From the NCBI RefSeq assembly GCF_019063845.1, contig NZ_CP077683.1, positions 930,001-994,000 of the forward strand: a stretch of 64,000 bases of DNA. The letters run 5' to 3'. Positions within the stretch are counted from its first letter, which is position 1. Each line of letters begins with the position of its first letter. Below the pieces are notes generated by a model. That model searched no databases and was not told the DNA's origin. It worked only from the letters and a program-made list of their open reading frames with translations. This document shows positions 52,104 through 63,514 of this stretch, piece after piece. Source of the DNA: Geomonas subterranea. GTDB taxonomy: Bacteria > Desulfobacterota > Desulfuromonadia > Geobacterales > Geobacteraceae. A program made the translations under genes and the position numbers.

Positions 52104-53507
52104 ATGAAAGCCACAACGACCACACAACAACACACGCTGCTCGTGGACGACGAACCCGGTATCCTCACCGAGGTGTCGCTGCTGCTCGCCTCGAGCGACA
52201 TCCCGGAGGTGGCGGCCATCTCTGACAGCCGGCAGGTGCTTCCCTACGTGCGGGAGCACCGGGTGCGCGCGGTGATCCTGGACTGGGTGATGCCCAACGT
52301 GACCGGCGCGGAGATACTGCAGAGCCTGACGGTGGAATTTCCGGAGATCCCGGTGATCGTAATGACGGCGATGGGGGACGTCGAGACGGCGGTTACCTGC
52401 ATGCGCCAGGGCGCCTTCGACTTCCTCACCAAGCCGGTGGACCCCAACCGCCTGGTGGCGAGTGTCAAGAAGGCGCTCCAGGTGAGCGAACTGGGGCAGC
52501 AAAACCGGATGCTCAAGGATTACCTGCTGGCGGACACGCTCGGTAACCCCGACGCCTTCGCCGGCATCATCACCACCTCCAAGAAGATGCGGGGCATCTT
52601 CCAGTACATCGAGGCGATCGCAAGCTCGAGGCTGCCGGTCCTGATCACCGGGGAGACCGGGGTGGGGAAGGAGTTGCTGGCCCGCGCGGTGCACGACGTC
52701 TCCGGCGTCCCCGGCCCCTTCATCTCGCTCAACGCCGCGGGGCTCGACGACTTCATGTTCTCGGACACGCTCTTTGGCCACAAGAAGGGAGCCTTCACCG
52801 GCGCCGACAGCAAGCGCGACGGCCTCATCAGCGCCGCCGCCGGGGGAACCCTTTTCCTGGACGAGATCGGCGACCTGAACCTCGCGTCCCAGATCAAGCT
52901 GTTGCGTCTTTTGCAGGAGCGCGAGTACTACCGGCTGGGGTCGGACCTGCTGCTTAAAAGCGACGCCCGCATCGTGGCGGCGTCGAACATGGATTTCGCC
53001 GCGCTGCGTGCCGCCGGGACCTTCAGAAACGATCTGTATTACCGTCTCTGCGCGCATGAGTTCAAGGTGCCTCCGTTGCGGGAGCGGCTGGATGACATGG
53101 AGGCGCTGGTGGACTACTTCGTGCGGCAGATCGCGTCGCAACAGGGGAAACCGGCGCCCAGGGTGCCGCAGAACGTGATCGCCGCGCTGCAGCAGTGCAG
53201 GTTCCCCGGGAACGTGCGCGAGCTGTACAACATGGTTCACCACGCCGTCACCTGCAACGAGGGGGCACCCCTTTCGGTGGCCGATTTCCCGGGCGTCGCG
53301 GCGGCTCCGGCGCGGGTGGCGCCCCCCGTGGACTGCGCCAATCCGCTGTTCTCCCTTTTCGGGAAGTTCCCGACCGTGCTTCAGGTCGAGGAATACCTGA
53401 TCGCCGAGGCCATGAAACTCACCAGCGGCAACCAGACGCAGGCGGCCGAGCTGTTGGGGCTGACCCGGCCGACTCTCAACAAGAGGCTGAAGCAGGAACG
53501 TCAGTAG
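52104..53507 (+). CDS. Sigma-54 response regulator beside the geopeptide locus
   Basis: A 467-residue NtrC-type regulator. Receiver (LLVDDEPGIL, phospho-Asp in AVILDWVMP, KPVD), AAA+ domain with Walker A GETGVGKE, intact GAFTGA, Walker B GGTLFLDEIGDL, and a terminal Fis-type helix-turn-helix (GNQTQAAELLGLTRPTLNKRL). Its 3' end overlaps that of the maturase gene by seven bases (convergent). The sensor kinase at 57826 is the closest candidate partner. No clear -24/-12 site is visible in the 55062-55180 divergent region, so its targets are not proven. Ribosome site weak. Confidence 0.92.
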   Translation: MKATTTTQQHTLLVDDEPGILTEVSLLLASSDIPEVAAISDSRQVLPYVREHRVRAVILDWVMPNVTGAEILQSLTVEFPEIPVIVMTAMGDVETAVTCMRQGAFDFLTKPVDPNRLVASVKKALQVSELGQQNRMLKDYLLADTLGNPDAFAGIITTSKKMRGIFQYIEAIASSRLPVLITGETGVGKELLARAVHDVSGVPGPFISLNAAGLDDFMFSDTLFGHKKGAFTGADSKRDGLISAAAGGTLFLDEIGDLNLASQIKLLRLLQEREYYRLGSDLLLKSDARIVAASNMDFAALRAAGTFRNDLYYRLCAHEFKVPPLRERLDDMEALVDYFVRQIASQQGKPAPRVPQNVIAALQQCRFPGNVRELYNMVHHAVTCNEGAPLSVADFPGVAAAPARVAPPVDCANPLFSLFGKFPTVLQVEEYLIAEAMKLTSGNQTQAAELLGLTRPTLNKRLKQERQ

Positions 53508-54838
53508 GGGGGTGCCGCCGCCTGGACGAATGTGCTCTGGGCGGTGGCCTTTTTCCGGGGGGCGAGATAGGTTAAGTTTTGCAGCACGCTTTTCTCAAGC
53601 GTGGCATCGTAGAATGTGCGCCTGCAGTCCACCTCGGTCAGGGAGTTCCCCTGCAGTTTGCTGACGAAACGGCAGCCGCCGAAGCAAAGCGGGAGATAGC
53701 TGCAATCCAGGCAGGCATCGACCTGCCAGTTGCCGATCCCGTGTGACACCCGGTAGTCCTGCAACCCCTCATCCAGGCTGCCGACGCTCATCCCTTCCCA
53801 CCCCATGAACGCCGGGCACTTGTAGAACTTCCCCGTGCAGTCGATCACCAGGTTGTCCTCGAGTTCCACGATGCAGGCGGACGGCTTGAGCGTGGGGGCG
53901 CGGTAGCCCCTGGCCAGGGTCGCTTCGCGCAGGAACGGGACCGCCTCCATGAGCCATGGTTCCTCGGAAAGGGCGCAACCGGAGCTCAGGTCCGAACACC
54001 CCCCCGTGGAAACGACAGGGGTGAACATCACCGCGGCAAGCTTGTCGGGGGTGATGCCGTAACGGGGGAGCAGGTCGAGCAGGCGCGGGAACTCCCGGTA
54101 GTTTTCCGGACGGTAGTTCGCCCCCAGCTGGATGGAAACAAGGTCGCAGACCTGCGCGAGGTTCCCGACGATGATGTCGAAACTCCCCGCGCCCGACGCG
54201 TAGGGGCGCTGGGCATCGTGGATCTCCGGGGGGCCGTCAACGGTGAACTTGGCACCCTGCAGTCCCAGCGGTAGCAGCTGCAGGGCCGTGTTCCGGTCCA
54301 GCAGCGTTCCGTTGGTCACCAGGTTGAAGGCGTACTTCACCCCGTGGCTGCGGGCCGCCTCCCGCAGTCTTTGCGAGATGCCGCGGATCAGGTCCTGCGA
54401 CAGCAGCGGCTCTCCGCCGTAGAAGGTGACGGTGACGTCCCACCCCTGCGAGATCCTGTCCCGCACCAGCTTCTCCACCAAAAGGTCCGCAGTGGCGTCC
54501 GACATGTACTGCCCGCAGCGGAACTCCCCCTCGAAGCAGTAACCGCAGTCCAGGTTGCAGTCCAGATTGAGCACAACGGAGGCTTTGAAGTGCCGCGTGC
54601 GTCCGTTGGCGCGGGCAATGAGCTCGCGCATCTGTTCTCTTTCCGCGTCCGGGTCCTCTATCAGCATCCCTAGACGCCTCAGCGCCTCGCACCCGTCATC
54701 GGGGAGCACGCCTTCTTGCAGTGCCGCGAGCGTTTCGGCCGGTATCGCCGCGATGGAACTGCGCAGGGTTGAATAGAGGAGCACATGACCGGGGCGGTCG
54801 GGGGAGGGGAAAACCTTCAGGTAGCGAGAGAGTTTCAT
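53501..54838 (-). CDS. Radical SAM/SPASM peptide maturase (geopeptide type)
   Basis: A 445-residue RiPP-modifying enzyme. Residues about 1-80 look like a PqqD/RRE-type peptide-recognition region. The radical SAM cluster motif is C94-NLD-C98-GY-C101, followed by VTFYGGEPLL (SAM-binding GGEP) and VTNGTLL. The C-terminal SPASM part carries many Cys for auxiliary Fe-S clusters (TGGCSDLSSGC, CTGKFYKCPAFMG, CLDCSYLPLCFGGCRF). The plan and sequence style match the 'geopeptide radical SAM maturase' family known from Geobacter. Directly upstream on the same strand is a 37-codon precursor gene. Its own ribosome site is weak and a hairpin separates the two, so peptide should exceed enzyme. Confidence 0.9.
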   Translation of the reverse strand: MKLSRYLKVFPSPDRPGHVLLYSTLRSSIAAIPAETLAALQEGVLPDDGCEALRRLGMLIEDPDAEREQMRELIARANGRTRHFKASVVLNLDCNLDCGYCFEGEFRCGQYMSDATADLLVEKLVRDRISQGWDVTVTFYGGEPLLSQDLIRGISQRLREAARSHGVKYAFNLVTNGTLLDRNTALQLLPLGLQGAKFTVDGPPEIHDAQRPYASGAGSFDIIVGNLAQVCDLVSIQLGANYRPENYREFPRLLDLLPRYGITPDKLAAVMFTPVVSTGGCSDLSSGCALSEEPWLMEAVPFLREATLARGYRAPTLKPSACIVELEDNLVIDCTGKFYKCPAFMGWEGMSVGSLDEGLQDYRVSHGIGNWQVDACLDCSYLPLCFGGCRFVSKLQGNSLTEVDCRRTFYDATLEKSVLQNLTYLAPRKKATAQSTFVQAAAPPY

Positions 54839-54903
54839 GGGAGCTATAACCTATTCCTGGCTGCAGGCGCGCAGTCATAAATGCTGTCTTAACGGCAATG
54901 GCG

Positions 54904-54940
54904 GAGTCTCGCCTTCCTTTAAGCAAGGAGGGCGAGACTC
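54904..54940 (-). terminator. Stem-loop between precursor peptide and maturase genes
   Basis: GAGTCTCGCC (54904-54913) pairs with GGCGAGACTC (54931-54940), continued by TCCTT/AAGGA, giving about 16 paired bases and a 5-base loop. There is no T tract on the minus strand, so a partial terminator or mRNA-end stabiliser is most likely, favouring precursor over maturase. Confidence 0.75.
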
Positions 54941-54947
54941 TTTCGAC

Positions 54948-55061
54948 TCATACCCAGCCGGCCCAGATGTACATGTAGATGCAGCAGCCAAATCCGTCAG
55001 TCATTTCCGCGTTGTTGTTGCCTTCATCTAGAATCTCCACTGCCAAATTTTCCTTTGTCAT
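54948..55061 (-). CDS. Geopeptide-type RiPP precursor peptide
   Basis: A 37-residue gene too short for usual callers, on the same strand and just upstream of the radical SAM maturase. An AGGAGG (55070-55075) sits eight bases from the ATG, the best ribosome site of the locus. Residues 1-20 (MTKENLAVEILDEGNNNAEM) form a charged leader with an LAVEILD segment suited to recognition. Residues 22-37 (DGFGCCIYMYIWAGWV) form a hydrophobic core with C26, C27, Y29, Y31, W33 and W36. Adjacent cysteines and aromatics are likely sites of radical crosslinking. No leader peptidase or exporter is nearby. Coding is supported by position, ribosome site and composition. Confidence 0.85.
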   Translation of the reverse strand: MTKENLAVEILDEGNNNAEMTDGFGCCIYMYIWAGWV

Positions 55062-55112
55062 TGCGCTTTCCTCCTGTGGTGGGTGTGAAAACCTTGGACA
55101 TTTCTAATAGGC

Positions 55113-55129
55113 TGTGATAAGTTAACACA
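55113..55129. promoter_or_regulatory. Candidate operator in the divergent geopeptide / TonB-receptor gap
   Basis: TGTGATAAGTTAACACA has TGTG and CACA arms nine bases apart and a GTTAAC centre. It lies in the middle of the 119-base gap between the divergent genes. It resembles a CRP/FNR-type site but is one base too long. Minus-strand TTGTGT-17-TTAGAA (55130-55102) could be the precursor promoter. Confidence 0.3.
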
Positions 55130-55180
55130 ACCTTATTTTGCTTGCAACAATAAATTTGAATTTTTTTATGAGGAGGTGCC

Positions 55181-56991
55181 GTGAGGAAAATGCCCGCAGC
55201 TTTGTCAGTGCTTGCCACAGTGAAGCTGGTGCTGCTGACTGTGGCGCTCAGTCTGCTGACAGTTGCGCCCGCGTGGAGCGATGACGACCTCAGTTCAGTT
55301 CAGCTTTTCAATGGGGGGGAGACGGAGCTTGTTTCAGCGAGCCGGTCGCCGCGCCCCGCATCGCAGACGGCTGAGAACATAACGGTGATCACGGCTGAGG
55401 AAATCGCAGCGCTGAACGCGCACACCCTGCCGGATATCCTCTACGCGGTGACCGGGATCCAGCTGGAGATAAACGGAACCCCGGGCACCAACACCAACAT
55501 AGAAATACAAGGCTCCGATTTCGACCATGTGCTGGTCCTGATCGACAACGTCCCGATCAACAGTCTTGCAGACAACTTTCCCGATCCCGGCTCCATCCCT
55601 GCCCAAATCATCGAGCGGATCGAGATTGTAAAGGGCGCCGCTTCCAGTTCCTGGGGGAGTGCCCTGGGGGCGTTGTCAATGTGATAACGAAGATGCCGCA
55701 GCAGGACCGCGTCATAGATGGCACCGTTTCTGGCTCCTTCGGGACCAGGGAGACCGTCGACGGACGTGTCGAAGCGAGCGGCACCGTTGACCGCCTGGGG
55801 TATTATCTTTACGGCGGGAAACTCCGCTCGGACGGCCTCTCCCCCAACAACCGCTCCGACCTTAAGAACCTGTACGGCAAGCTGCACTACGAGCTTCCGG
55901 TACGCGGAGCGCTCACCCTTTCAACCCTGTACACCACCAAAGAATCGGGGCTTAACGCCAACATCAGCGACCAAAAGCACGAACTGGTCTCGTCGCTCGC
56001 CCTGCAGTTGCCGCTGGAGAACCGCCTCACCCTCGACGCCTCCCTGAGGACGCACCAAAACGACATGGATATGTTCATCGTCGGCCTCCCCTTTAGCCCT
56101 CTCACCGCCTCGGAGAAGGACCGCAGCAGCGGCGGAAGCATGAAACTTTCCTGGCTCGGGGAGAGCCAGCTGGTTGTCGCGGGGGTGGATTACGACCATG
56201 TCAAGGTGGGGCTGCGGGGGGGGCTGTTTCCCGGCGAGATAAGCGAAGCAGCCAACCGTATCGGGCTCTACGTGAACGACACCATCACGGCCGGCAACTT
56301 CGCCATAACGCCAAGCGCCCGCTTTGACTGGACCGGTTTCGGGGGGAACCGCTTCAGCCCCAGCTTCGGCATTACCTACGCGTTGAGCGAGAACAGTCTC
56401 CTGCGCGGCTATACCGCCCGGGGGTACAGTCTCACCTCGTTGAACCGGGCGGATTCCACCGAGAAGGTGTGGACCTCGCAATTGGGGTTCGAGTCGGGGG
56501 AGATTCCCTATCTGTGGCTCAAGGCGACCCTGTTTAGAAACGACACCTGGGACGTCCTCAGCAACGAATCGGGCGCCATCGTCAAGGAGCGACAGCTCAA
56601 GCAAGGGGGCGAATTGGAGCTGCGCACCGCCCCGCTCTTCAACACCTCACTTTCCACCGGATACACCTACATACACGCCAGCGGCGGGAATGACGGGGCC
56701 GCACCCCAGTACATGCCAGAACACACCCTCAAGCTCGGGCTGCGTTACCGGGACCCGTCACAGCTGCAGGCGCAGCTGACCGGGTACTACATCGACTGGA
56801 ACACGCCGACCGGACGGAGTGGGGGGATACTCTGGGACCTGCACCTGGGCAGGACATTCGAGTTGTCCGACTCGGGTTCCGTGGAGATCTTCGGCTCGCT
56901 CAGGAACATCTTCGACAACAAGCAATACCTCTTCGCACTCTACAAGAACACCGGGCGCTGGGCTGAAGTGGGGGTGAGATGCCACTTCTGA
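55181..56991 (+). pseudogene. TonB-dependent outer-membrane receptor, interrupted by a one-base frameshift
   Basis: The first part (GTG start 55181 behind GAGGAGG) gives a signal peptide and the plug: ETELVSASRSPRPASQTAENITVITAEEI, DILYAVTGIQLE, VLVLIDNVPINS, IERIEIVKGAASSSWG. It stops at 55682-55684. The barrel continues in another frame from about 55669 to 56991 (NVITKMPQQDR...EIFGSLRNIFDNKQYL) and ends in CHF with a terminal Phe. Adding one G to the G5 run at 55666-55670 restores the expected LGGVVNVITK and one frame of about 603 codons. It may be a real pseudogene, a phase-variable run or a sequencing slip. It belongs to the binding protein and kinase downstream. Confidence 0.85.
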
Positions 56992-57824
56992 GAGTCCTGC
57001 TCCTGCTGTTTTTCACCCTGATACCCACCCTCGCCCTTGCCTACGATGTCCTCGTGCTCCAGTCCATGCACGAGAAGGGATACGACGAGGCGGTGCGAGG
57101 CTTCAAGCGCGACTGCCGCGGGTCCGTGCGCCGCATCGTGCTCACCGATTTCGCAGAACTCGACCTGACCCGCATCATCCGCGAGGAGCACCCGAAGCTG
57201 ATCGTGGCCGTGGGGGACCGGGCACTGGAAGTGGCGCAGAGGCAGCATGGGACCCCGGTACTCTACATGATGGCATTGAACGCGAAGCCGCGCGGGGCCG
57301 CGGGAGTGAGCATGCTCCTGGACCCGGGGCGGTACATCTCCGTCTTCGAGGAGATGGGGGTGGAGCGTGTGGGGGTGCTGTACGATCCTGCCCGCAGCGG
57401 CGCCTACGTGAAACGCGCGCTTGCCGCTGCCGGGCGCACCCGCGTCCGGCTGGTGCTGCGCGAGGTGCACGCGCCCAAGGAAACACCGGCCATGCTCGCC
57501 TCCCTCAAGGGGAAGGTCGACGCGCTCTGGATGCTTCCCGACGCGACGGCGGTTTCACCGGGCTCCACGGAGGCGTACTTCCTCTTCTCCCAGGCCGAAC
57601 GCGTGCCGGTGGTGACCTTCGCCGAGGTCTACCTCTCCATGGGAGGGGCCGTCGCGCTCACCATCGACCGCTACGATATCGGCAGGCAGGTGGCCGAACT
57701 GGCGCAACGCATGCTGGATGGCAACCCGACGGATGAGGGGGGAGCCCCCGACAGGCGCGCGGTCACCAGGACCAACGAGGGAGTGGTGCGCCAGTTGAAG
57801 CTGAACGGCGTGGTGGGGCGCTGA
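56979..57824 (+). CDS. Periplasmic substrate-binding protein (ABC_sub_bind/TrpX-like), orphan
   Basis: A 281-residue exported protein with signal peptide MPLLRVLLLLFFTLIPTLALA. The rest has the two-lobed pattern of the PF04392-type binding proteins: DVLVLQSMHEKGYDEAVRGF, IVAVGDRALEVA, RVGVLYDPARSGAYVKRAL, LWMLPDATAVSPGS, GGAVALTIDRYDIGRQVAELAQRML. It overlaps the receptor gene by 13 bases and ends one base before the kinase. No permease or ATPase gene is present, so it probably serves as a ligand-sensing partner of the kinase, not a transport component (inference). Confidence 0.85.
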   Translation: MPLLRVLLLLFFTLIPTLALAYDVLVLQSMHEKGYDEAVRGFKRDCRGSVRRIVLTDFAELDLTRIIREEHPKLIVAVGDRALEVAQRQHGTPVLYMMALNAKPRGAAGVSMLLDPGRYISVFEEMGVERVGVLYDPARSGAYVKRALAAAGRTRVRLVLREVHAPKETPAMLASLKGKVDALWMLPDATAVSPGSTEAYFLFSQAERVPVVTFAEVYLSMGGAVALTIDRYDIGRQVAELAQRMLDGNPTDEGGAPDRRAVTRTNEGVVRQLKLNGVVGR

Positions 57825-57825
57825 C

Positions 57826-59466
57826 ATGAGAAAAAGAAAACTGCGTCTCCCACCCTACGCCAAGAGCTTCCGTTTCCGGCTCTACCTGATATTCACCGGC
57901 ACCATCGCCTTGCTCACCGCCGCTTTCGTCACCTTCTACGTCATCACCGAGTTGAACGCCTACCGCTCCACCATGGAGCGGGAAGGGAAGCTGCTCGCCA
58001 CCATCCTGGCCCAAAACGCGCGGCTGCCGCTTTTCGCCGAAAACAGGGAGGCGCTCGCCACCTTGGCCGAGGGAACTGCGCGTTACCCCTCGGTGCTGTC
58101 GGTCTCCATCGTCGACCGCGAAGGGAGGCTCCTTGCCCAGCAGGTGAAGGCGCAGACGGTCGCCGGTGACGTGATCGACATGCGGGTGCCCATCAGCTCC
58201 CCCAGCGGAGTGCTCTCTCCCGAGTCGGCGCTGCTTGGGCAGCCCCAGGGGAACGAGCAGCGGGTCATCGGAGAGGTGCGCCTGACGCTCGAGATGTCCG
58301 CTGCGCGCGAGCGGCTGGTTACCCTGGTGGCGGCTTCCCTGGCCATCGGCACGCTGTTCTGGATCGTGGTGTCCCTGCTTTGCTACCAGATCCTCAAGAG
58401 GGTCACCAACTCCTTCAACCTCCTCATGGGGGGGATCGAGAACATCGGAAACGGCACGCTCTCCGCCCGGGTGGATCTCGACGGGGACGACGAGCTGGCC
58501 CGCGCCGCCAACGCGATCAACGCCATGGCCGCCTCCCTGGAGTTGCGCGAGCTGGAAAACCAGGCGCTGCAGGACGAACTGCTCCGGGCGATGAGGCTCG
58601 AGGTGCAGGAGGAGAAGAAGCTGGTCATGGCGCGCCTGATCCAGACCAACAAGATGACGTCGCTGGGGCTGCTCCTTTCCTCCATGGCCCACGAGATCAA
58701 CAACCCCAACGCCTCGATCCGGTTCTCGGGGCACATGATCGGGAAGATGCTCTTGGACGCGCTGCCTCTTCTGGACGGAGTATGGCAGGAGGAGGGTGAA
58801 TTCTATCTCGGCGGGGTGCCGTATCAGAAGGCGCGTCAGGTGCTCACGGAGAACGCCGGCAAGATAGTCGAGAACTCCGAGCGCATCGCCCAGGTGGTGC
58901 AGGGATTGAGGGATTACGGGGTAGGGGGAAGGGGGCAGCTGCGCCAGAGGCTGGAGATAAACAGCGCGGTTTCCGCGGCCCTTTCGGTGCTCGCGTGCCA
59001 GATGAAACGGGATGTGCAGCTGCAGACGTCGCTGGAGACCTCGATACCGGCCGTCGCCGGGAGCCAGCAGCAGATCGAGCAGGTGCTCATCAACCTGATC
59101 CTCAACGCCATGCAGTCCTATGCGGGGGGGCGCGGCGAGGTCCACTTGTCGACCCGTCACGACGCCGCCAGGGGCGAGGTGGTGGTCGAGGTACGCGACC
59201 ATGGCGCCGGCATCGCGCCGGAGATCATGGCGCGTCTCTTCGAACCCTTCTACTCCACCAAGCTCGACCTCGGCGGCAGCGGCCTCGGGTTGTACATCTC
59301 GCAGTTCATAGTGTCGGAGCACGGCGGCCGGCTGCAGCTCTCCTCCACGGCGGGGAAGGGGACTGTGGCGACGGTCACGCTCCCGGTGGCCGGCGCCTCA
59401 GTGGTGGGCGTGCTCGCCTCCCAGCACGGTCAGCATCCCTCCGATCCGGTCCATCAGGTCGGTTAG
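57826..59466 (+). CDS. Membrane sensor histidine kinase of the geopeptide/TonB locus
   Basis: A 546-residue kinase: transmembrane helix about residues 18-40, a periplasmic sensor of about 115 residues (CHASE8-like, LLATILAQNARLPLFAENREA), a second helix about 163-186, HAMP (NIGNGTLSARVDLDGDDELARAANAINAMA), HisKA box MAHEINNPNASI, and ATPase motifs LINLILNAMQSY, DHGAGI and GGSGLGLYI. It is cotranscribed with the receptor and binding protein, so it likely reads their ligand. The regulator at 52104 is the nearest partner. Its last 23 codons overlap the convergent small gene. Confidence 0.92.
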   Translation: MRKRKLRLPPYAKSFRFRLYLIFTGTIALLTAAFVTFYVITELNAYRSTMEREGKLLATILAQNARLPLFAENREALATLAEGTARYPSVLSVSIVDREGRLLAQQVKAQTVAGDVIDMRVPISSPSGVLSPESALLGQPQGNEQRVIGEVRLTLEMSAARERLVTLVAASLAIGTLFWIVVSLLCYQILKRVTNSFNLLMGGIENIGNGTLSARVDLDGDDELARAANAINAMAASLELRELENQALQDELLRAMRLEVQEEKKLVMARLIQTNKMTSLGLLLSSMAHEINNPNASIRFSGHMIGKMLLDALPLLDGVWQEEGEFYLGGVPYQKARQVLTENAGKIVENSERIAQVVQGLRDYGVGGRGQLRQRLEINSAVSAALSVLACQMKRDVQLQTSLETSIPAVAGSQQQIEQVLINLILNAMQSYAGGRGEVHLSTRHDAARGEVVVEVRDHGAGIAPEIMARLFEPFYSTKLDLGGSGLGLYISQFIVSEHGGRLQLSSTAGKGTVATVTLPVAGASVVGVLASQHGQHPSDPVHQVG

Positions 59467-59946: not shown

Positions 59947-60318
59947 TCACCGGGCGAGCGCCGCGCGCACCGCGTCGGTGATCTGTCCCGGCGTGAAGGG
60001 CTTCAGGATGTAGCCGTTGGCCTTCGCCTCGTCCACCAACTGGCGCATCTCCCCCTCGCTCTTCGAGGAGAGGAGCAGGATCGGGATGTCCCGGCTTACC
60101 TCGTTCTCCTTCAAAAGCTTCGCCTTCTTGTTGCCGTCCAGCATGGGCATCATGATGTCCATGATGATCAGGTCGGGCTTGTCCTTGGAAAAAATGAAGC
60201 GGTTCGCCTCAATGCCGTTGGTGGCGGTCACCACCTGGTAGCCGGCCTGGTCAAGAGCGTCCTTGGCCATGGCAAGTACCAGTTCGCTGTCGTCGATGAT
60301 GAGGATCTTTTCTCTCAA
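59947..60318 (-). CDS. CheY-like single-domain response regulator
   Basis: A 123-residue stand-alone receiver: ILIIDDSELVL acidic pocket, phospho-Asp in LIIMDIMMPMLDG, Ser in LLLSSKSEGEM, and the conserved Lys in YILKPFTPGQ. No output domain. It is the last gene of the MCP-CheA-CheB series, 19 bases after cheB. Probable phosphate acceptor of CheA, acting on a motor or on another process. Confidence 0.92.
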   Translation of the reverse strand: MREKILIIDDSELVLAMAKDALDQAGYQVVTATNGIEANRFIFSKDKPDLIIMDIMMPMLDGNKKAKLLKENEVSRDIPILLLSSKSEGEMRQLVDEAKANGYILKPFTPGQITDAVRAALAR

Positions 60319-60337
60319 GGCGCATCTCCTTTCTTGG

Positions 60338-61408
60338 TCAGTCGTGCGGCGCCAAGGCGCCGGGTTCGGGTTCGGGGCGTTGCGCCGCGAACAGCTTGTT
60401 CAAAGCGGCCGGTATCAGATCCAGGGGGACCACCTGGTCGGCCGCGTCGAGGGTGATGGCGGCCTTGGGCATCCCGAAGACCGCGCAGGATGGCTCGTCC
60501 TGGACGATGGTGGTTCCGCCGGCCTCCCGTATGTGCAGCATCCCCTGGGCCCCGTCGCGTCCCATCCCGGTCAGGAGCACGGCCACCACGTTGTCACAGC
60601 GCTGCCGGGCCAGCGAGTCGAAGAAGACGTCGATGGAGGGACGGCAGCAGTTCATGGGAGGGGCGTCGTTGAACCGGATCGTCCCCTCGGCCAGGGTCAG
60701 GTGCGTGCCGTCGGGGGCGATCAGCGCCTCGCCCGCCCGGAAGGGGGCGCCGTCGCGGGCGAGCTTGACCGGAAGTGCGCATTCCCGGTCCAGCCAGCTG
60801 GCGAACCCTGCCGCGAACCCCTGCGCTATGTGCTGCACCACGAATACGGCGCCGGGAAAATCCGCCGGGAGGGACTTCAAAAGCCGCATGACCGCCTTGG
60901 GGCCGCCGGTGGAGGCGCCGATGGCGAGTATGTTGTGTCCGGAACCGCCGGGAAGGGGGGCGAGCGCCTCTCCGGCGCGCAGCTTGCGCCGCGGGTGCCT
61001 GATGACCCGGATCCTGGAGAGGAACTGGACCTTCTCCCGCAGCGTGGCGGCGAACCCTTCCAGCGACCCGATCCCGTCGAGAGCCGGCTTCTCCATCACG
61101 TCCAGCGCCCCCCTCTTGATGGCCATGAAGGCGCGATCCACCTCGCTTGCCTCCACCGCCGCCGAGAGGACCAGCACCGGGGTGGGGCAAAGCGCCATGA
61201 TCTCCTCGATGGCGTCCAGGCCGTCCAAAACCGGCATCAGGAGGTCCATGATCACCAGGTCGGGCTTGAGCGCCTGGGCCAGCTCGACCGCCTGCCTGCC
61301 GTCGCACGCAGCACCGACCACACGGATGTCGTCCCTGGCCTGCAGCATGTCGGTCAGCAGCTGGCGCGCGAGGAGGGAATCATCGGCCAGCACAACCCTC
61401 GTGGTCAT
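60338..61408 (-). CDS. cheB: Chemoreceptor glutamate methylesterase CheB
   Basis: A 356-residue enzyme. Receiver (residues 1-120: LADDSLLARQLL, LVIMDLLMPVLDG), linker, then the methylesterase domain with the catalytic Ser in IGASTGGPKAVM, His in FVVQHIAQGFAAGFASWL, and Asp in LLTGMGRDGAQGM, followed by GGTTIVQDEPSCAVFGMP. It removes methyl groups from receptors during adaptation. The matching CheR is not in the window. Confidence 0.95.
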   Translation of the reverse strand: MTTRVVLADDSLLARQLLTDMLQARDDIRVVGAACDGRQAVELAQALKPDLVIMDLLMPVLDGLDAIEEIMALCPTPVLVLSAAVEASEVDRAFMAIKRGALDVMEKPALDGIGSLEGFAATLREKVQFLSRIRVIRHPRRKLRAGEALAPLPGGSGHNILAIGASTGGPKAVMRLLKSLPADFPGAVFVVQHIAQGFAAGFASWLDRECALPVKLARDGAPFRAGEALIAPDGTHLTLAEGTIRFNDAPPMNCCRPSIDVFFDSLARQRCDNVVAVLLTGMGRDGAQGMLHIREAGGTTIVQDEPSCAVFGMPKAAITLDAADQVVPLDLIPAALNKLFAAQRPEPEPGALAPHD

Positions 61409-61468
61409 AGAAACTTTCCTTCCTTGGCGTGAGGCGGGCGCGTGCCCGCGTGAAACCGTCCCGCGGCG

Positions 61469-63514
61469 TCAGCCGATCAGCATCTGCACCGTTTCCAGTA
61501 AAAGCCCCTGGTCGAAGGCGCCCTTGACGATGTAGGCCTGCGCCCCGGCCTGCAGCGCCTGGCGCTTGTCCTCGTCGCGCGACAGCGACGAGACGATGAT
61601 CACGGGGATGTCGCGGTACTGCTCGGAGGCGCGCAGGGCCCGGGTCAGCTCGAAACCGTTGATCCCCGGCATCTCCACGTCGGAGATCACCAGGTCGAAC
61701 TGCTCCTGCGCGCTCTTCTCCAGTGCGTCCTCGCCTGAGACCGCCGTCACCACCGCGTACCCCTGGCTCACCAGGATGCTCTGCTCCATGGTGCGGGTGG
61801 TGATGGAGTCGTCGACCACCAGCACCTTGAGGCGCCGTTGGGCCGCCTGCGCCTCCTCGGCCGAGAGCGTGGCGCGCCGCACGCCGCGCCCTGACTCGAA
61901 CAGGTCCGGGACGTTCAGGATCAGGGCCGGGTTGCCGTCCCCCATGATGGTGGCGCCGAACAAGAACCGGACGTTTCTGAACTGTTTGCCCAGCCCCTTG
62001 ACCACCACCTCGCTGTAGCCCAGGTGCGCGTCCACGATGCAGGCGATGCGCTGGTCGCAATGCTTTAAAACCACCGCCGAGAGCGTCAGGTCCCCCGCCT
62101 CGCGCCGATCGGTGAGCCCCAGCATCCCCGGCAGGCTGTACAGCGGCGTGGTCGCGCCGCGCACCTTGATCACCTCGCCGCTCCCAAGGGTGTCGATCTC
62201 GCTTGCGCGCACCTTGACGATCTCCTGCAGGTACGTTGTGGGGATGGCGAAGGTTTCCCCCCCGCAGGCGACGATCAGCGCGTCCAGGACCGACAGGGTG
62301 AGCGGAAGCTGCAGGGTGACCTGGGTGAAGCTCCCCGGCACGCTGGCGAGGGTCACGCTCCCCTTGACCCGCTCTATGTTCTTCTTCACCACGTCCATCC
62401 CCACCCCGCGCCCCGAGACGTCGGTGACGATGTCGGCGGTGGAGAAGCCGGGACGGAAGGTGAGGTAGAGGGCCTCGTCGTCGCTGAGCGCCTCGGCCTC
62501 GCGGGGATCGAGCACGCCGCGCGCGACCGCGGCGGTCTTGATGCCGGCGGGGTCCATGCCCCGGCCGTCGTCGCGCACCTCGACCAGCACCGAGTTCCCC
62601 TGGTGGCGGGCCGAGAGCAGGACCGCGCCCTGGCGCGGCTTCCCGGCGGCCGCGCGCGCCTCGGGGCTTTCGATGCCGTGGGAGAGGGCGTTGGTCAACA
62701 GGTGGATCAGGATCGGTTTCAATCCATCGAGGAGCACGCGGTCCATCTCGATGGCCTGCCCGACGATCTGGAAGCGCACCTCGCGCCCCAGTTGCTGCGC
62801 GAGGTCGCGCACCAGGCGTTCCAGGCCGTCGGAGATGGTGCGCAGGGGGAGCATGCGCAGCCCCATCGCTTTTGCGTGCAGCTCCTGGATCAGGTAGTCG
62901 AGGTAGAGGACGTCCTCCTCCAGCTCCCCGCGAAAGGCCGCAAGCTCCGTGACGTGACCGGCGGGGAGCGCGCCGGTTATCTCCTTGAGGCGGTCCAGCT
63001 TCGATTCCAGGCGCTTCTTGTTGATGATCAGCTCGCCAACCAGGTTCACCAGGTGGTCCAGGGTCTTCACGTCCGCGCGCACCGTGTCCGCAAGCGCCGC
63101 CTCGGGCTGGCTCTCCCGGGGCTCGGTGTGGAGCTGCTGCCCAAGTTCGCCCCGGTCGTACTCCGCGACGAACCGCTCCACGTCCAGTTCCGGCTTCTCG
63201 CCGCGCATCAGGGCCGAGGTGATGAGCGCCACCGCATCGGCCCCCCGTAACAGCAGGTCGATGCCCCGGGCGTCCACCTTGCGCTCGCCGCTCTCCATCC
63301 CCTTTAACTGCTCCTCCATGGTGTGGGTGATGGCGCTGATGTCGGCGAGCCCCACCATGCGCGCCGACCCCTTCAGGGTGTGCGCGTTGCGCAACAGCTC
63401 GTGCAGCAGGTCGGTGCGAGCCGGGTTCTTCTCCAGGACCAGCAGGCCGCTTTGCAGCGAGGCCAGGTGCTCCTCCGCCTCCCGGCAGAAGATCTCCAGG
63501 TAACGGTTCCCCAT
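61469..63514 (-). CDS. cheA: CheA-type histidine kinase with C-terminal receiver
   Basis: A 681-residue hybrid CheA. N-terminal Hpt with phospho-His in NAHTLKGSARMVGL (about residue 45), dimerisation region (VKTLDHLVNLVGELIINKKRL), kinase core (HLLTNALSHGIESPEAR, DDGRGMDPAGI, GRGVGMDVVKKNIE), CheW-like domain, and a receiver at about residues 555-681 (VLVVDDSITTRTMEQ, LVISDVEMPGINGFE). The CheY-binding P2 domain is absent or very short. The CheA-REC layout is typical of alternative chemosensory systems. The ATG directly follows the receptor's stop codon. Confidence 0.93.
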   Translation of the reverse strand: MGNRYLEIFCREAEEHLASLQSGLLVLEKNPARTDLLHELLRNAHTLKGSARMVGLADISAITHTMEEQLKGMESGERKVDARGIDLLLRGADAVALITSALMRGEKPELDVERFVAEYDRGELGQQLHTEPRESQPEAALADTVRADVKTLDHLVNLVGELIINKKRLESKLDRLKEITGALPAGHVTELAAFRGELEEDVLYLDYLIQELHAKAMGLRMLPLRTISDGLERLVRDLAQQLGREVRFQIVGQAIEMDRVLLDGLKPILIHLLTNALSHGIESPEARAAAGKPRQGAVLLSARHQGNSVLVEVRDDGRGMDPAGIKTAAVARGVLDPREAEALSDDEALYLTFRPGFSTADIVTDVSGRGVGMDVVKKNIERVKGSVTLASVPGSFTQVTLQLPLTLSVLDALIVACGGETFAIPTTYLQEIVKVRASEIDTLGSGEVIKVRGATTPLYSLPGMLGLTDRREAGDLTLSAVVLKHCDQRIACIVDAHLGYSEVVVKGLGKQFRNVRFLFGATIMGDGNPALILNVPDLFESGRGVRRATLSAEEAQAAQRRLKVLVVDDSITTRTMEQSILVSQGYAVVTAVSGEDALEKSAQEQFDLVISDVEMPGINGFELTRALRASEQYRDIPVIIVSSLSRDEDKRQALQAGAQAYIVKGAFDQGLLLETVQMLIG

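Follow-up and report, generated by a model that had tools for sequence, protein, structure and literature searches.

What does a cell do with a small modified peptide whose gene and maturase stand beside a receptor, a periplasmic binding protein and a sensor kinase? The question is raised by a locus of Geomonas subterranea in which a 37-residue geopeptide precursor and its radical S-adenosylmethionine (SAM)/SPASM maturase adjoin a TonB-dependent receptor, a binding protein of family PF04392, a membrane histidine kinase and an NtrC-type response regulator. The locus lies within a stretch of 64,000 nucleotides (hereafter the window), positions 930001-994000 of a 4.99-Mb single-contig genome. The initial annotation had recognised a peptide gene beside a SPASM maturase, and both score above curated cut-offs, the precursor for TIGR04229 and the maturase for TIGR04280, which makes the locus a member of the geopeptide family. 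It had also stated that geopeptides have no described function; the library descriptions of TIGR04229 and TIGR04280 indeed give none, and literature searches, judged by titles and the beginnings of abstracts, returned nothing on a geopeptide or TIGR04280 system. We favour, with moderate confidence, the explanation that the modified peptide serves as ligand for the TonB receptor encoded beside it, its arrival being reported by the binding protein and kinase. A named but function-less peptide family would thereby gain a testable role.

Partners of the maturase across genomes

Of 277 genomes of the class, 101 carry TIGR04280 above its cut-off, and by our reading of the list these belong without exception to one order. 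Regions were fetched around 120 maturase matches of about 140 listed, a few being fragments below cut-off. With the window included, the sample comprised 125 maturase copies in 121 loci, of which the 99 copies flanked on each side by 5 kb or more of sequence could be evaluated. L039, the same DNA as L052, was left out of the 99; L052 (of the window's own genus group, g1) is itself wholly contained in a locus from Citrifermentans bremense R1 (Geobacteraceae). Neighbours were counted at thresholds of 150 bits for the TonB receptor, 100 for the binding protein, 400 for the kinase and 550 for the regulator, and the counts depend on these values. The family profiles were built from the same loci and their scores are not independent; blastp with the proteins of the window gave the same picture of the neighbourhood.

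Within 5 kb of the maturase, a TonB receptor was present at 97 of the 99 copies (the exceptions being L138 and L163), a binding protein at 95 and a kinase at 80; all three occurred together at 77. The nearest receptor lay upstream of the maturase and divergent from it in 80/99 cases, with a median distance of 299 nt. Since receptor and binding protein are so nearly constant, maturases do not usually lie without the TonB, binding protein and kinase genes, and the partnership that had been proposed from the window holds across the order as well as in other classes of the phylum. The sigma-54 regulator fares differently: it is present in the window with the expected domains (Table 1) but is not a constant part of the system, lying within 5 kb of only 42 of the 99 copies. 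At the level of whole genomes of the order, 93 have both binding protein and maturase among the listed matches, 10 have only the maturase, 9 only the binding protein and 29 neither (Fisher p 4e-14, kinship ignored; the maturase list includes some fragments).

Several arrangements depart from the common one. Two TonB receptors accompany a single maturase in L099, L103, L094, L097 and L136, and in most cases a binding protein goes with each. The receptor lies on the other side of the maturase, in a divergent arrangement, in L106, L114, L117, L120, L134, L137, L146, L155 and L164, and in these nine rearranged loci the relatives of binding protein and kinase score lower. L138, L163 and L166 carry kinases and a regulator, no binding protein and no clear precursor with leader and Cys-Cys (CC); they possibly form a separate branch.

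Beyond the class the picture is much the same. In a sample of 395 genomes of the phylum, 31 carried TIGR04280 above cut-off, 23 of them outside the class, and a restriction of the maturase to one order is thus rejected. The profile of linked receptors gave 28 matches of at least 421 bits in those 23 genomes and the next-best TonB receptor scored 147, so that the linked receptors form a separate score class. Such a receptor lies within 2.5 kb of 23 of the 26 maturase copies outside the class (coordinates read by eye), and for the three exceptions (G512, G470 and G492:C16) high-scoring receptors sit on other contigs of the genome. A binding protein was found within 7 kb on the same contig for 22 of the 26, two of these (G559 and G520) being fragments at contig ends. 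The linkage of receptor and maturase reaches beyond the order. Of 12 regions fetched from outside the class, 9 have a short CC open reading frame (ORF) with a leader-like stretch upstream of the maturase, the resemblance to precursors being only loose in L217 and L218; no CC precursor was found in the regions L212, L213 and L216.

Further partners were sought among ORFs of 70 aa or more lying up to 7 kb from a maturase; these were clustered, and the 45 widest clusters were inspected. Only the kinase (87 loci) and the regulator (53 loci) formed clusters present in more than 28 loci. The next-widest were mostly shared flanks of the window's genus, and the three that crossed genera run antisense to binding protein, maturase and kinase. 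By Pfam, no exporter, protease or ABC permease was present among 10 representatives of these recurring clusters, a negative whose scope is the wide clusters of ORFs of this length near the maturases. Seven representatives matched CheA-like, AAA/DRTGG, HisG, phosphatase, isochorismatase, glutamate-type dehydrogenase and radical SAM families; the remaining three, without a match, are the antisense ORFs. The earlier statement that no exporter or protease gene is present is therefore borne out among the recurring neighbours examined.

Exchange of maturase, precursor and receptor as a block

Synonymous divergence (dS) is raised in the centre of the locus, the values being 0.82 for the TonB receptor, 0.69 for the maturase, 0.59 for the binding protein, 0.51 for the regulator and 0.47 for the kinase; maturase-free TonB receptors give 0.33. 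This prompted a test for block replacement, and the pair L051 and L052, from two closely related species, provided a clear case. Over the 16 kb compared, identity in windows of 250 to 300 nt is 90-99% and stays so across the regulator, binding protein and kinase genes, with flanks mostly at 93-99% and a lowest 250-nt window of 90%. The exception is a block of about 3.55 kb at 50-78% identity (edge windows 83-86%). Its edges coincide with the regulator stop codon and the 3' end of the TonB gene, and its content is exactly the maturase, the precursor and the TonB receptor. Within the block L052 remains nearer to L060 (60-83%; maturase 77-83%) while L051 is equidistant from both, from which we infer that L051 acquired a foreign version.

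Phylogenetic tests agree with this exchange. L051 and L052 are sisters on the regulator and kinase trees. The approximately unbiased (AU) test rejects their grouping for the maturase (p 2.3e-6) and the TonB receptor (p 9.3e-6); it rejects the grouping of L052 with L060 for the regulator (p 0.0012) and the kinase (p 8.3e-5), for both of which L051 and L052 stand together in the best tree. For the binding protein neither grouping is favoured. The groups to be tested were fixed only once the first trees had been inspected, and a quick search without a mixture model was used. Because the receptor moves with the maker and the precursor while the read-out stays behind, the receptor appears to be matched to the product, and this is the strongest evidence for a receptor that recognises the peptide. 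The recovery of the peptide proposed in the initial annotation is supported to this extent, one clear replacement of maturase, precursor and receptor as a unit being what a receptor that recognises the product would lead one to expect. The replacement also constitutes a natural experiment that predicts which parts must match.

Milder dips in identity over the same block were seen in L056/L063, L054/L055 and L055/L057, with a slight one in L049/L059; in L139/L154 the dip lies mainly within the TonB gene, and L075/L077 show the reverse, with differing surroundings and a similar locus. Among 13 non-overlapping sister pairs, the maturase was more diverged than the kinase in 10 and the TonB receptor likewise in 10, both excesses being present in all seven pairs within the window's genus. 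Two further pairs, in which a locus was matched to itself, were discarded. In the 17 loci of that genus, a correlation between maturase and TonB receptor distances remains once the regulator is taken into account (partial r 0.37), and none is seen between maturase and kinase (0.02). Across 97 loci, the distance of the precursor tail correlates with that of the TonB receptor given the maturase (r 0.22). Diversifying selection on the receptor was considered and rejected, dN/dS being 0.15 for linked TonB receptor and maturase and 0.31 for maturase-free TonB receptors, both measured in the same six genomes.

Product/receptor exchange and receptor divergence of this kind are familiar from bacteriocin loci. 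The joint exchange of product and receptor, and the fast divergence of the receptor in the window's genus, would therefore also suit an antagonistic weapon, a peptide that targets near relatives bearing the matching receptor and is both armed and sensed by the locus. We regard this as very unlikely, given that the recurring neighbours examined include neither an exporter nor a candidate immunity or lysis gene and that the receptor is located in the producer's own locus.

The peptide, its maturase and the proposed circuit

The precursor of the window possesses the leader EILDEG, followed by Cys-Cys and a 10-residue tail of mostly aromatic and hydrophobic residues, and exceeds the TIGR04229 cut-off by 2.5 bits. 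In precursors generally, an EVLDEG-like leader is separated by about 6-16 residues from a Cys-Cys pair, which is seldom missing, and 7-18 tail residues follow. A strict motif of leader and CC matched 102 times in 168 kb upstream of maturases (strand-specific) versus 5 times in 3.99 Mb elsewhere, and four of those five are additional precursors close to a maturase. This fixed pattern was present in 97/121 loci. With a looser pattern and hand curation, a precursor was located no more than 1.3 kb upstream of 112 of the 125 maturase copies; the curation dropped ORFs judged spurious and retained four precursors without CC, and the resulting share of CC is biased and was not used. The TIGR04229 model itself, of 22 positions, is above cut-off in just 14 of 141 genomes of the order. 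Tails vary by lineage, being aromatic in the window's genus (CCIYMYIWAGWV) and small and polar with basic ends in many other lineages (CCTGGTSSARK-like).

Some loci hold two precursors (L056 and L063), and L083 combines two maturases and four CC precursors with one TonB receptor, which may serve several products. At L188:10752-10865, a precursor with CIC in place of CC stands beside a TonB receptor and a binding protein; the maturase is absent from the 17 kb around it, and the maturases of that genome lie elsewhere.

The maturase matches TIGR04280 over profile positions 1-427 of 428 and scores 44.8 bits with the SPASM model TIGR04085 (cut-off 27). In 25 aligned maturases, the cysteines of the CX3CX2C motif (C94, C98 and C101) and those of the SPASM region (C288, C322, C341, C376, C379, C385, C389 and C405) are invariant. 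The predicted structure (predicted local distance difference test, pLDDT, 87.5) has as its nearest solved fold 5why/5wgg (template modelling score, TM, 0.66, E 4e-22), which is also the best solved sequence relative (E 2e-19, about 20% identity). The title of that entry refers to thioether bond formation in sactipeptides, and we take the protein to be CteB. The CteB-like fold together with the conserved Cys-Cys suggests that the maturase probably forms a thioether to one precursor cysteine. Membership of the SCIFF/ranthipeptide family (TIGR03974) is rejected, the maturase scoring 87.1 bits against a cut-off of 425. An in-frame stop is reported inside the maturases of G164 (L048) and G216, one in each.

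The model of the binding protein (pLDDT 90.9) is nearest in fold to the Trp-binding protein 3lft, the Vibrio protein 3lkv and CD0873 (6hni). No ABC permease lies beside it in the locus. As a binding protein without a permease adjoins the kinase, sensing in the periplasm is indicated.

A circuit can be proposed from these parts. The CteB-like radical SAM/SPASM maturase would modify the short precursor, with its conserved leader and nearly invariant Cys-Cys, and the mature peptide would exit the cell by a general route. The dedicated neighbouring TonB receptor would recognise the peptide and bring it, alone or with cargo, into the periplasm, where the permease-less PF04392 protein would bind it and inform the adjoining kinase; in part of the lineages, the kinase would signal to the NtrC-type regulator. 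Maturase, precursor and receptor would form a lock-and-key unit exchangeable as a block, and binding protein, kinase and regulator a constant read-out. The payload may be a signal, a metal or both. A more specific version, possible though on balance doubtful, is peptide self-recognition. The peptide would then be a private signal (or signal and metal carrier) that can return only through the TonB receptor of its own locus and that the permease-less binding protein and kinase detect in the periplasm; the 3.5-kb set of maturase, precursor and receptor would be a specificity cassette underlying peptide types, and maturase-free modules would listen to the peptides of other strains. If the favoured explanation holds, Geobacter relatives, which are important in metal-reducing sediments, would be able to distinguish their own peptide product from those of others, and receptor type would be readable from DNA.

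As a sub-case of the explanation that we favour, the peptide could be a chalkophore-like metallophore, its two cysteines binding a soft metal outside the cell and the loaded peptide returning via the TonB receptor, so that it would act as methanobactin does while being the product of a radical SAM enzyme. The near invariance of the Cys-Cys pair is in keeping with this, and the combination of precursor, modifying enzyme, TonB receptor and binding protein resembles the methanobactin layout, for which PMC7558416 describes the receptor and binding protein. However, the recurring neighbours examined include no metal-linked gene, reductase or permease, and the fold of the binding protein is nearest to amino-acid binders and not to the OppA-like MbnE. 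A metallophore is accordingly rather unlikely in our estimation.

Receptor modules also occur apart from the maturase. Of the 150 binding-protein homologs listed for the order (at or above about 311 bits), 102 have a maturase no more than 8 kb away; the other 48 have none at that distance, several of them sitting at contig ends. A receptor tree (FastTree) of 110 linked and 19 maturase-free receptors interleaves the two kinds, and its well-supported branches require 10 or more changes between them. A second TonB/PF04392/kinase module of the window genome is found at L168:8573-13564 (genome positions ~4,974,572-4,979,563), and no maturase or CC precursor was found near it in the 19 kb examined. 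Each of the 19 genomes in the genus encodes two or more binding proteins of this kind; in G178 both adjoin maturases. The maturase-free modules may be listeners to foreign peptides, or their receptor may have another ligand.

The presence of these modules in many genomes, and their interleaving on the tree, would be expected if the maturase turned the precursor into a cellular redox cofactor, in the way that PqqA yields PQQ, for use in the same pathway, with receptor, binding protein and kinase serving an unrelated small ligand; the lack of an exporter among the recurring neighbours examined is also consistent with such a cofactor. Two observations lead us to consider it unlikely. The replaced block includes the receptor and not the binding protein or kinase, which would be difficult to account for with a ligand that has nothing to do with the peptide, and a variable tail is unexpected for one cofactor unless it is trimmed off.

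A number of findings weigh against the peptide as ligand of its own receptor. TonB/binding protein/kinase modules without a maturase exist, one of them in the window's own genome, so the receptor ligand could be something else, and L138, L163 and L166 have a maturase and a kinase and no TonB receptor. A single sharp replacement was found, and identity in L056/L063 dips once outside the block too. The faster divergence of maturase and TonB receptor is not general in other genera (3/6 sister pairs). In the six genomes compared, dN/dS indicates purifying and not diversifying selection, so that adaptive replacement of amino acids does not by itself account for the excess divergence. In the 17 loci of the genus, the distance of the whole precursor tracks the kinase (0.80) and regulator (0.79) more closely than the maturase (0.62) and TonB receptor (0.59). 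Over the 97 loci, the tail correlates with the binding protein as it does with the TonB receptor (0.21 and 0.22, given the maturase), and both values fall when conditioned on both others (0.09 and 0.11, respectively). Sigma-54 (-24/-12) sites occur in 10/115 upstream regions on the precursor strand and in 10/115 on the other, which equals the background of 8.3% per 350-nt strand window; an enrichment of sigma-54 promoters near precursors is therefore not supported. Finally, the TonB receptor is frame-broken in the window's own genome, and as it is broken or mis-sequenced in this strain, the window's own copy of the locus may not work.

Locus layout and known systems

The features of the locus are collected in Table 1. 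Regulator and maturase overlap by 7 nt at their 3' ends. The TonB barrel ORF overlaps that of the binding protein by 13 nt and a gap of 1 nt separates binding protein and kinase, so that an operon of the three is likely. The genome of 5 Mb contains only three TonB plug domains and four PF04392 genes above cut-off, which makes a chance adjacency unlikely. The gene content of the divergent operon described in the initial annotation is confirmed by Pfam; its TonB gene, however, is split into two ORFs, a frameshift that had been overlooked. With a receiver and a sigma-54 activation domain in the regulator and a kinase in the locus, regulator and kinase qualify as a sigma-54-dependent two-component system.

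Table 1. Features of the geopeptide locus in window coordinates, with the domain or family matches of each
Feature	Position	Strand	Evidence
NtrC-type response regulator	52104..53507	+	PF00072 receiver, PF00158 sigma-54 activation, PF02954 Fis-type helix-turn-helix
Geopeptide radical SAM/SPASM maturase	53501..54838	-	TIGR04280 651.5 bits, cut-off 400
Geopeptide precursor, 37 aa	54948..55061	-	TIGR04229 32.5 bits, cut-off 30
TonB-dependent receptor, piece 1 (plug; signal region by eye)	55181..55684	+	PF07715 E 5e-21
TonB-dependent receptor, piece 2 (beta barrel), different frame	55681..56991	+	PF00593 E 4e-21
Periplasmic binding protein, PF04392	56979..57824	+	48.5 bits, cut-off 25.9; signal peptide by eye
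Membrane sensor histidine kinase	57826..59466	+	HAMP, HATPase_c (PF02518), cache-like sensor domain PF09984 25.7 bits, cut-off 22.1

The receptor frame is broken near G runs at about 55,650-55,671, leaving plug and barrel in different frames. In 18 relatives from the window's genus, the receptor match is a single open piece of 605-622 aa. When the barrel piece is compared with seven near relatives, dN/dS has a median of 0.19 (single pairs 0.17-0.26); among those relatives themselves, the value is 0.156 (range 0.126-0.217). As the barrel shows little sign of relaxed selection, the break is either recent or a sequence error. Split TonB receptors are present in L082 and L160 too. An N-terminal STN signalling domain (FecA-type) was not found, Pfam on the plug piece giving Plug only. 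Chemotaxis-type regulatory genes (by eye) flank the locus at window positions 59947-63514; this flank is shared mainly within the genus, and Pfam confirms a CheA-like relative for L057.

Within the literature searched, what appears to be new is the partnership with a receptor, the occurrence outside the class and the cassette that can be exchanged; the family of ribosomally synthesised and post-translationally modified peptides (RiPPs) had already been named. CteB is the closest solved maturase by sequence and by fold, although the low identity given above and a position outside the TIGR03974 family set the geopeptide maturase apart.

In Pseudomonas, the synthetase genes for pyoverdine and the matching TonB receptor FpvA are commonly near each other (PMC11444679), and sets of pyoverdine synthetases have been replaced through horizontal transfer (PMC11366639). 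The likeness lies in a linked maker and matching receptor and in maker genes that can be replaced; the geopeptide locus is not itself a member of that group. Here, in contrast, the product is ribosomal and the whole specificity unit measures about 3.5 kb.

Methanobactin derives from a short precursor and a modifying enzyme pair, MbnB/MbnC. Membership of the methanobactin family is rejected, since Pfam found no multinuclear iron enzyme of the MbnB type with MbnC in nine proteins or pieces from the locus and its two neighbours, nor in the 10 representatives of neighbour clusters. Operons for methanobactin possess a dedicated TonB receptor, MbnT, and a periplasmic binding protein, MbnE, as described in PMC7558416. 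Both systems thus pair a short precursor and the enzyme that modifies it with a TonB receptor of their own and a binding protein in the periplasm. They differ in that MbnB/MbnC and an OppA-like binding protein are replaced here by a radical SAM/SPASM maturase, a PF04392 protein and a two-component read-out, with no exporter seen. By analogy, and with linkage and block replacement as indirect evidence, the geopeptide may nevertheless be methanobactin-like in function, a loaded peptide that would be taken up again by its own TonB receptor.

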